A DNA stretch of 33,314 nucleotides, taken from assembly GCA_029260935.1 (NCBI GenBank), contig JAJDCJ010000012.1, forward strand, positions 1 through 33,314, written 5' to 3'. The translations under genes and the position numbers were made by a program. The notes under the pieces are model-generated. The model did no database searches. It had not been told where the DNA came from and saw only the letters and a list, made by a program, of their open reading frames with translations. How positions within the stretch are numbered: position 1 is the first letter of the stretch; the number at the start of each line of letters is the position of its first letter. Source of the DNA: Patescibacteria group bacterium. Lineage in GTDB: Bacteria > Patescibacteriota > Minisyncoccia > Phycocordibacterales > Phycocordibacteraceae. Below are positions 5,826-24,317 of the stretch, one piece after another.

Positions 5826-5898
5826 GCGCGGTTAGCTCAGCTGGTAGAGCGCCTCATTGACGTTGAGGATGTCGGGGATTCGAGTTCCTCACCGCGCA
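5826..5898 (+). tRNA. tRNA-Val(GAC), CCA not encoded
   Basis: Acceptor GCGCGGT/ACCGCGC, D-arm GCTCAGCTGGTAGAGC, anticodon arm CCTCA-TTGACGT-TGAGG, T-arm GGGGATTCGAGTTCCTC. Confidence 0.95.
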
Positions 5899-5905
5899 CA
5901 CGGCA

Positions 5906-11906: not shown

Positions 11907-11981
11907 TGGTGCCCCCACCAGGAATCGAACCCAGATTTTCTCCTTAGGACGGAGCTGCTCTATCCATTGAGCTACAGGGGC
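11907..11981 (-). tRNA. tRNA-Arg(CCT), CCA encoded
   Basis: Minus strand GCCCCTGTAGCTCAATGGATAGAGCAGCTCCGTCCTAAGGAGAAAATCTGGGTTCGATTCCTGGTGGGGGCACCA; anticodon loop GTCCTAA. Confidence 0.93.
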
Positions 11982-12398: not shown

Positions 12399-12475
12399 GC
12401 CGAGGTAGCTCAGTTGGTTAGAGCACTGGTTTGAAGAACCAGGTGTCGGCGGTTCGAGCCCGCCCCTCGGCACCA
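12399..12475 (+). tRNA. tRNA-Phe(GAA), CCA encoded
   Basis: GCCGAGGTAGCTCAGTTGGTTAGAGCACTGGTTTGAAGAACCAGGTGTCGGCGGTTCGAGCCCGCCCCTCGGCACCA. Confidence 0.95.
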
Positions 12476-22057: not shown

Positions 22058-22179
22058 TACAGTCAAGCGTGAATTGTTTGCGCCGATAAGCCGAATTCTG
22101 TATCCCACCCTCCTTGCGGAAGGTGGGACGACAATCATTTATCTTGATTATAGGTTGCCCTATAATTCTTTGCGGCTCT

Positions 22180-22392
22180 CCCGCACACCAACTTTGGCAT
22201 CGTTGCTCGTCCGCACACTAACTTTTGGATTGTTCTGACTTTGCCAGAACGCACAAAGTGCAATCTAAAAGTTAGTGTGCGGGCATAGTGTTTTCGTGGA
22301 TTTCCATTCCATCGTTTACGTTCCAACTGATAGCACGTACCTGCTGACTTCTTCGATGCAACAAAAACACAATGCCAAAGTTGGTGTGCGGG
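22180..22392. repeat. 213-bp nested palindromic element, copy A, inside rnpB (P15-P17 region)
   Basis: 21-bp TIRs CCCGCACACCAACTTTGGCAT/ATGCCAAAGTTGGTGTGCGGG; nested inner arms CCGCACACTAACTTTTGGATTG/CAATCTAAAAGTTAGTGTGCGG. Confidence 0.95.
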
Positions 22393-22635
22393 CGCGGCCT
22401 TGCATGCAGGTACACATTTAGCCGTTTCACCTCCCTATTACTAGAGAGTTCATCCCGATAAATCGGGAGTCGTTGGCTTTAGCCGCGGACGTCTCTGCTC
22501 GCAGCACTCACTCCCCAATTCACATGATGTAGGAGTGTATGGGCGTTACCCATTACCCTTCCAACTTTGCCCACCGAAAGTGAACAAAATTGGCGCATGT
22601 TCGGACTTTCCTCACTTTTGTTCTCAAGGAACCAG

Positions 22636-22848
22636 CCCGCACACCAACTTTGGCATCGTTGCTCGCCCGCACACTAACTTTTGGATTGTTCTGACTTTGC
22701 CAGAACGCACAAAGTGCAATCTAAAAGTTAGTGTGCGGGCAGAGTGTTTTCGTGGATTTCCATTCCATCGTTTACGTTCCAACTGATAGCACGTACCTGC
22801 TGGCTTCTTCGATGCAACAAAAACACAATGCCAAAGTTGGTGTGCGGG
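22636..22848. repeat. 213-bp nested palindromic element, copy B, inside rnpB (P3 region)
   Basis: About 3 substitutions versus copy A, same orientation, same TIRs. Confidence 0.95.
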
Positions 22849-22925
22849 CAAGCGCGATTGTCTGGCGCTGATCTCATACTATATCATAACGCCATATTTC
22901 CAGCTATAGTACATAGTGGAAAAAA

Positions 22926-22972: not shown

Positions 22973-23278
22973 CTAGTAGCCTCCGCGATCTCTACCACCG
23001 AAACCTCCGCGATCACCCGCTGGGCGATCTTCACGTGGTTTTGCTTCGTTTACATTCAAAGCGCGACCATCAACTTCCTTACCGTCAAGCGTTTCAATTG
23101 CTTTCTGAGCACCTTCTTCTGTTGTCATTTCAACAAAAACAAAGCCTCGTGGACGACCGGTCATTTTATCGGTGATAATAGCCACTGATTCAACTTCTCC
23201 GGCTTCCGAAAAAACCTCTTTTAGCTGATCTTCAGTAACGTTGTACGGCACGTTGCCGACAAATAATTTCTTACCCAT
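22973..23278 (-). CDS. RNA-binding protein with RRM and glycine-rich tail
   Basis: KLFVGNVPYNVTEDQLKEVFSEAGEVESVAII..GRPRGFVFVEM; GGFGGRDRGGY. Confidence 0.95.
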   Translation of the reverse strand: MGKKLFVGNVPYNVTEDQLKEVFSEAGEVESVAIITDKMTGRPRGFVFVEMTTEEGAQKAIETLDGKEVDGRALNVNEAKPREDRPAGDRGGFGGRDRGGY

Positions 23279-24221: not shown

Positions 24222-24232
24222 AACATTTTTTG

Positions 24233-24317
24233 CGGAGACGGAGGGATTCGAACCCTCGAGAGCTTTCACCCTACTCACTTTCCAAGCGAGCTCACTAGGC
24301 CACTATGCGACGTCTCC
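24233..24317 (-). tRNA. tRNA-Ser(GGA), CCA not encoded
   Basis: Minus strand GGAGACGTCGCATAGTGGCC...CTCGC-TTGGAAA-GCGAG...long variable arm...GAGGGTTCGAATCCCTCCGTCTCCG. Confidence 0.93.

Follow-up and report, generated by a model that had tools for sequence, protein, structure and literature searches.

Insertion of a palindromic repeat into the gene (rnpB) for RNase P RNA, the essential ribozyme of tRNA maturation, is not unheard of, since Rickettsia palindromic elements (RPEs) have been reported in the tmRNA and RNase P RNA genes of Rickettsia (Ogata et al., 2002, as covered in the consulted part of the review PMC2229807). In the Candidate Phyla Radiation (CPR, Patescibacteria), RNase P RNAs that lack P16/P17 as well as the UGG motif have been published, one of them with an extended P15 (Lui et al., 2021, PMC8172020, consulted sections). 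CPR rRNA genes carry short inserts, some of which were suggested to be intervening sequences (IVSs) cut by RNase III; inserts without an open reading frame (ORF) were left unclassified, and those encoding a GIY-YIG nuclease were regarded as rare and as lying outside homing (Tsurumaki et al., 2024, PMC11270868). Here we analyze a 33,314-nt stretch of DNA from a Patescibacteria group bacterium (contig JAJDCJ010000012.1, positions 1-33,314, hereafter the window), in which rnpB is interrupted by two near-identical inserts with the anatomy of mobile elements. These inserts recur in other genes and genomes and belong to a widespread, apparently undescribed family of palindromes with terminal inverted repeats (TIRs).

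The genome carrying the window is a 695-kb uncultured assembly in 21 contigs, 98% complete. Searching it with RF00010 yielded a single locus (38.5 bits, E = 4e-11, model positions 1-367 end to end) and no second rnpB. The inserts keep the score under the 100-bit cut-off, though it stands well clear of noise, and Rfam at gathering threshold reports neither rnpB nor an intron over the whole window; rnpB in genomes of this kind escapes standard models. A nucleotide hidden Markov model (HMM) was trained on 13 rnpB genes without interruptions, all from the same family as the window. Against the window as it stands, this model gives three pieces of 118.6, 52.7, and 8.4 bits, bounded by the inserts; once both copies are joined out, a single 186.2-bit match spans nearly the whole model. 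The gene measures ~789 nt with the inserts and ~361 nt without them. All landmarks are kept in order: P1/P2 5', P4 5', GCAAGGCCGC, a segment resembling conserved region IV (CR-IV), P18, and P4 3'.

An earlier annotation made from the sequence alone (the first-pass annotation) had proposed that a single rnpB carries two such insertions, one in P3 and the other in the P15 region, and keeps its P1, P2, P4, and P18 strands; our searches bear this out. No intact second rnpB was seen in the genome, and neither copy falls outside the RNA; these were the two outcomes that the annotation had named as speaking against its proposal. The P4 strands, P1, the ordered CR elements, and the model match all agree with class A (RF00010). 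The P15-loop GGU motif that binds tRNA CCA in this class was not found, the sister genes having a plain P15 hairpin; its absence is common in CPR (PMC8172020).

The two inserts are 214-nt copies, 456 bp apart, that differ at 3 positions (99% identity). Each is a nested palindrome: the arms of the outer inverted repeat are 24-25 nt long and 96% complementary, those of the inner one 22-24 nt and 95-96%; the TIRs read CCCGCACACYAACTTT, and one element is nested inside another. Both copies stop exactly at the TIR boundaries, and copy 1, at P15, lies flush with GCAAGGCCG and AGAGCCGC. The RNA of the element folds with a predicted energy of -103 kcal/mol (z = -10.8), which 0 of 200 shuffles equaled.

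Sister species define the sites before interruption. In relatives from this genus and family with empty sites, P3 is a short hairpin, and a short P15 hairpin without P16/P17 occupies the interval between GCAAGGCCG and AGTGCCGC. The site that the first-pass annotation placed in the P15-P17 region is indeed there and can be refined to P15 itself, the sisters having no P16/P17; the repeat arms of the element now form P15. Its suggestion that this insert alters CCA recognition is weakened, given that uninterrupted sisters already have a plain P15 with neither P16/P17 nor a GGU loop. Absence of the CCA-contact loop from CPR RNase P RNAs is already on record (PMC8172020), so its loss is not due to the insert alone.

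An element search of the same genome located further copies, of ~133-141 bp, with common ends CCCGYACACYAACTTTNGCAT and diverged middles. One (C8:32277-32417) interrupts the 23S rRNA gene near E. coli positions 1704-1763, another (C8:15436-15575) inside the 5' domain of the 16S rRNA gene (mapping approximate), and a third (C9:31602-31736) at the 3' end of a DNA-glycosylase-like ORF. A homologous ~137-bp element with the same TIRs sits exactly at P15 in two sister species (G002 and G006), where seven other sisters have a short hairpin instead. The inner element is absent from all three of these further copies and from those of G002 and G006, indicating that the rnpB copies are composites. The first-pass annotation, right about the insertions, had missed this dispersed TIR family in the genome's own 16S and 23S genes and in P15 of sister species. 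With inverted repeats at both termini and several dispersed copies, the inserts resemble miniature inverted-repeat transposable elements (MITEs).

The relatives of the window's element are CPR metagenome-assembled genomes (MAGs). Elements with the exact pattern occur in Kaiserbacteria, Nomurabacteria, Doudnabacteria, and two other MAGs; within the order, 12 of 397 genomes, from 11 genera, have elements with these ends, and reversed-pattern controls are near zero. A distant-mode search of the element DNA against plasmids returned no match. A pattern match at C7:59082 was discarded as a chance partial match within other sequence. As separate observations on 23S rRNA genes, the gene in the window's own genome (L073) is ~830 nt longer than the model, with inserts of 433 nt after E. 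coli position ~2633 and of 83 nt after ~1163, the latter starting near the TIR-like GCCACACCAATTTT; the 23S gene of G055 (L097) holds three TIR elements.

The same two helices of rnpB are hit repeatedly. TIR elements with varied TIR variants occupy P15 in G000, G002, G006, G031, G067, G299, G401, G407, and G359, abutting AGGCCGTG on one side and AGTGCCGC on the other, or close variants of these, and G297 probably holds one as well. In G031 the 306-bp element at P15 encodes an intact GIY-YIG ORF, and a 107-bp non-coding element with nearly identical ends lies in P3; a different TIR subfamily thus occupies the window's two sites. The P15 element of G067 is likewise a GIY-YIG element, and a GIY-YIG element lies in P3 in G443, from another class of the window's phylum. 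The rnpB sets sampled were partly chosen for length, and these counts do not amount to a rate of insertion. Long P15 intervals in L014, L021, and L164 seem to reflect mis-parsed ends, and several further long P15s, among them L064, L066, L068, L162, and L163, were left uncounted, having no TIR of this kind. Elsewhere in rnpB, L166 (G139) has a 96-bp palindromic insert at P18 and L160 (G297) a 112-bp palindromic insert just after CGGACACG, both with TIR-like ends. The P15 of G028 (L021) reads CCGAGCACCACGTGCTCGG, resembling two joined TIR ends.

Longer relatives of the element encode a protein. A 299-bp element of G006, with TIRs CCCGCACACTAACTTTCG, has a single ORF, for an 87-aa GIY-YIG nuclease (PF01541, E = 4.1e-15); G068 has a 297-bp element with nearly identical ends, again with one GIY-YIG ORF. 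In both genomes CCCGCACACTAACTTT flanks the intact ORF on either side, identifying a coding relative with matching TIR. Homologous small GIY-YIG ORFs occur in 291 of 397 genomes of the order; the coding elements span ~265-320 bp, and their sole ORF is a nuclease of ~85 residues. At a score threshold of at least 11, TIRs bracket the ORFs of 26 of 29 close and 16 of 20 mid-rank homologs (42/49), against 0 of 746 control intervals of the same size in the same loci. This same-locus control replaced earlier control pairs, which were inflated because the families have common TIRs. In a phylum-wide sample TIRs surround 14 of 29 ORFs. The TIR variants include CCCGCACACTAAC, CCCCCACACCTTT, GCCCCTCACCCAGAA, CCCAGCACCTT, TCCCGTTAGAGAT, and TCCCGTACGAAAT, most beginning with CCC or TCCC. 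Exact direct repeats of at least 4 nt border 31 of 55 elements, whereas shuffling left and right flanks among elements gives a mean of 3.2 and a maximum of 9. The catalytic Y, YxG, R, H, and E are conserved at 92-100% across 66 GIY-YIG proteins. TIRs, target duplications, and short non-coding forms together characterize a TIR transposon family that has non-autonomous derivatives. The protein gave no match to phages and four weak matches to plasmids, hence nothing in those collections points to a phage or plasmid carrier. Separately, a GIY-YIG element of G006 (L077 1501-1799) abuts the start of a MurB-like gene, with an in-frame GTG start within the TIR.

tRNA genes are a further target. Six elements (L103, L127, L128, L136, L147, and L149) lie a few bases into tRNA genes, where the duplication and the right TIR end (..GGGGC or ..GCGGG) jointly reconstitute the 5' end of the tRNA. 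For L103 (1501-1576) the target is confirmed by an Rfam tRNA match that begins inside the TIR; for the other five it is read from flanks resembling tRNA starts. In a different arrangement, a Doudnabacteria MAG (L093 3902-4016) has a whole tRNA gene, cargo-like, between CCCGCACACTAACTT-type inverted repeats.

Table. Features of the interrupted rnpB gene and its two inserts (positions in the window)
Feature	Position	Strand	Basis
rnpB, RNase P RNA, class A-like, interrupted	22080..22868	-	RF00010 match, HMM with copies joined out, landmarks
P4 3' strand and P1 3' strand ACAGAATTCGGCTTATCGGCGC	22080..22101	-	landmark reading
P18 hairpin of rnpB	22104..22127	-	landmark reading
CR-IV-like AAGATAAATGATTGTC of rnpB	22130-22145	-	landmark reading
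Element copy 1, composite, 214 nt, forming the P15 hairpin of rnpB	22180..22393	.	sequence and sister comparison
Outer left TIR of copy 1, CCCGCACACCAACTTTGGCATCGT	22180..22203	+	inverted-repeat reading
Inner element nested in copy 1, CCGCACACTAACTTTTGGATTG ... CAATCTAAAAGTTAGTGTGCGG, ~74 bp, related TIR	22210..22283	.	
Outer right TIR of copy 1	22369..22392	-	inverted-repeat reading
Conserved GCAAGGCCGC directly 5' of the P15 element	22394..22403	-	sister comparison and landmark reading
P4 5' strand GAGGAAAGTCCGAAC of rnpB	22599..22613	-	landmark reading
Element copy 2, composite, 214 nt, in P3 of rnpB	22636..22849	.	sequence and sister comparison
Outer left TIR of copy 2	22636..22659	+	inverted-repeat reading
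Inner element nested in copy 2, 74 bp, complete CCCG...CGGG ends	22666..22739	.	
Outer right TIR of copy 2	22825..22848	-	inverted-repeat reading
P1/P2 5' landmark of rnpB	22854-22868	-	landmark reading

Adjoining rnpB, positions 22973-23278 of the window hold a gene, named from its sequence, for a small glycine-rich RNA-binding protein of the RNA recognition motif type. The window also has four tRNA genes (5826-5899, 11907-11981, 12399-12475, and 24232-24317); those for Phe and Arg encode CCA, and those for Val and Ser do not.

We favor, as a probable account overall, that the inserts are copies of a MITE-like CPR element, mobilized in trans by a GIY-YIG nuclease and tolerated because their paired TIRs form hairpins. 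The rnpB inserts would be non-autonomous copies with TIRs of ~16-25 bp (CCCGCACACYAACTTTGGCAT) and target-site duplications of 4-5 bp. We infer from the sequence comparisons that the GIY-YIG protein is the mobilizing enzyme: the ~85-aa endonuclease most likely cuts the TIR and/or the target DNA, and the coding element, an autonomous member of ~280-320 bp, would mobilize itself and the short copies in trans. Once inserted, the paired TIRs would form a new hairpin or lengthen an existing one (in the case of rnpB, the peripheral P15 and P3), with the catalytic core still able to fold; replacement or extension of a helix by TIR pairing would explain how the core could have survived. The RNase P RNA probably retains its function, whether it persists as one ~790-nt molecule or is cut at the long hairpins into pieces that the fold keeps together. 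The P15 site, common to G002 and G006, is probably the older one. There the inner element may have entered the outer one, after which the composite would have been copied to P3 or gene conversion would have homogenized the two copies. The repeats flanking P3 and P15 are imperfect and leave this order of events tentative.

Several observations weigh against this account. The rnpB copies have no clean target duplications, only the imperfect repeats just mentioned. The P15 elements replace the short hairpin and are not inserted in its loop, which obscures the route of insertion there. No TIR was detected around 3 of 29 close, 4 of 20 mid-rank, and 15 of 29 phylum-wide GIY-YIG ORFs. Finally, the window's own genome has no GIY-YIG element with CCCGCACAC ends; of its two GIY-YIG ORFs, the best has the TIR ACCCTGTTAAAT and the other none detected.

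The last point bears on which enzyme moves the elements. A host enzyme or a separate transposase might do so, with the GIY-YIG ORF a passenger or a homing-type helper, and the presence of CCCGCACAC copies in a genome without the matching nuclease element favors this view. We also know of no transposon built from TIRs and a lone GIY-YIG nuclease, such enzymes usually serving in homing or alongside a second enzyme. Nevertheless, GIY-YIG is the only ORF in ~300-bp TIR-bounded elements across many TIR variants and genera, and its catalytic residues are conserved; we consider a different mobilizing enzyme unlikely, though a contender. Whether the locus is real deserves the same scrutiny, as rnpB could be dead or its second copy misassembled in a metagenome contig. 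Such closely spaced, near-identical copies in a single metagenome-type assembly would fit an artefact. However, no other rnpB was seen in the 98% complete genome and the core landmarks are all kept, while the copies stop exactly at TIR boundaries, differ at 3 sites, and have counterparts at the same sites in independent genomes, making a pseudogene or artefact very improbable.

Regarding the fate of the RNA, RNase III may cut the palindromes out without religation, as with 23S IVSs, leaving the mature RNase P RNA in pieces. Near-perfect 24-bp stems with the low z-score given above, and inserts at helix ends like those of short unclassified CPR rRNA inserts (PMC11270868), are consistent with this fate. 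Against it, the linked protein is a GIY-YIG nuclease and not the known 23S-IVS protein family, and inserts also occur beyond rRNA, at tRNA-gene starts and intergenic sites. We regard such processing as quite possible, at somewhat less than even chances; as a statement about RNA fate it is compatible with a mobile-element origin. Removal with religation, by self-splicing group I or II introns, is by comparison extremely unlikely. Such introns are abundant in CPR rRNA genes (PMC11270868), but no Rfam intron family reaches gathering threshold in the window or at the other element loci, palindromes of 68-143 bp are too small for group I/II ribozymes, and CPR rRNA GIY-YIG inserts are reported to be unlike either intron (PMC11270868). 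Local duplication could also have lengthened P3 and P15, their likeness to dispersed repeats being incidental; both helices vary in length in CPR, and an extended P15 has been drawn before (PMC8172020, consulted sections). To this expansion we give almost no credence: dispersed copies already contradict it, the same ends occurring in 16S, 23S, and unrelated genomes, P15 or P3 inserts in other genomes contain nuclease ORFs, and the element family has target duplications.

The mobile-element account would offer one explanation for three CPR oddities: short unclassified rRNA inserts, GIY-YIG rRNA inserts, and diverged or undetected RNase P RNAs. If GIY-YIG alone drives movement, these elements would be among the smallest autonomous transposons, with a transposase chemistry that, to our knowledge, no described class uses. 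We put at about even odds the broader proposal that CPR bacteria host an undescribed, minimal class of DNA transposon, of ~300 bp with TIRs, 4-5 bp duplications, and a lone ~85-aa GIY-YIG protein, whose ORF-less palindromes prefer structural RNA genes. The favored sites of this class would be rRNA, tRNA starts, and rnpB P15/P3, with paired ends replacing a helix; short P15 hairpins may be fossil elements, some of those in CPR perhaps fossil ends. A single-copy essential ribozyme here carries, and apparently survives, selfish insertions that have struck two defined helices repeatedly, and a split or oversized RNase P RNA can thereby be tested for directly.

Among described systems, 23S rRNA IVSs resemble these elements in their palindromic ends and in being inserted at helix tips of a structural RNA, where IVSs are cut by RNase III; unlike IVSs, the CPR elements extend beyond rRNA and are linked to GIY-YIG instead of the IVS protein. 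MITEs and TIR DNA transposons likewise have TIRs, 4-5 bp target duplications, short non-coding copies, and longer coding relatives, but the coding relative here has GIY-YIG only, with no DDE, HUH, serine/tyrosine recombinase, or Cas1. Open-access titles and abstracts, a scope that leaves out most subscription papers and preprints, contained no recognizable bacterial precedent for GIY-YIG with TIRs or MITEs.

RPEs are also short (105-146 bp) palindromic, TIR-bearing repeats in a conserved RNA gene, presumably neutral there; the consulted part of PMC2229807 gives their target duplication as unknown and names no nuclease-coding partner. The likeness is one of description, with no RPE sequence compared, and RPEs belong to the Rickettsia lineage. 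The CPR elements differ in their 4-5 bp duplications, nuclease-coding relatives, the two copies in one rnpB, and recurrent targeting of P15/P3. For the diverged CPR RNase P RNAs, a mobile-element origin is not proposed in the consulted sections of Lui et al., 2021 (PMC8172020). The closest counterparts are the short CPR rRNA inserts of Tsurumaki et al., 2024 (PMC11270868), which are likewise short and non-intron, some with GIY-YIG, at the tops or bases of stem-loops, and very likely are the same elements. The strings "inverted repeat", "palindrom", "target site duplication", and "RNase P" are all absent from the text of that study; the TIRs, duplications, and RNase P and tRNA targets described here join its ORF-less and GIY-YIG forms as one family.
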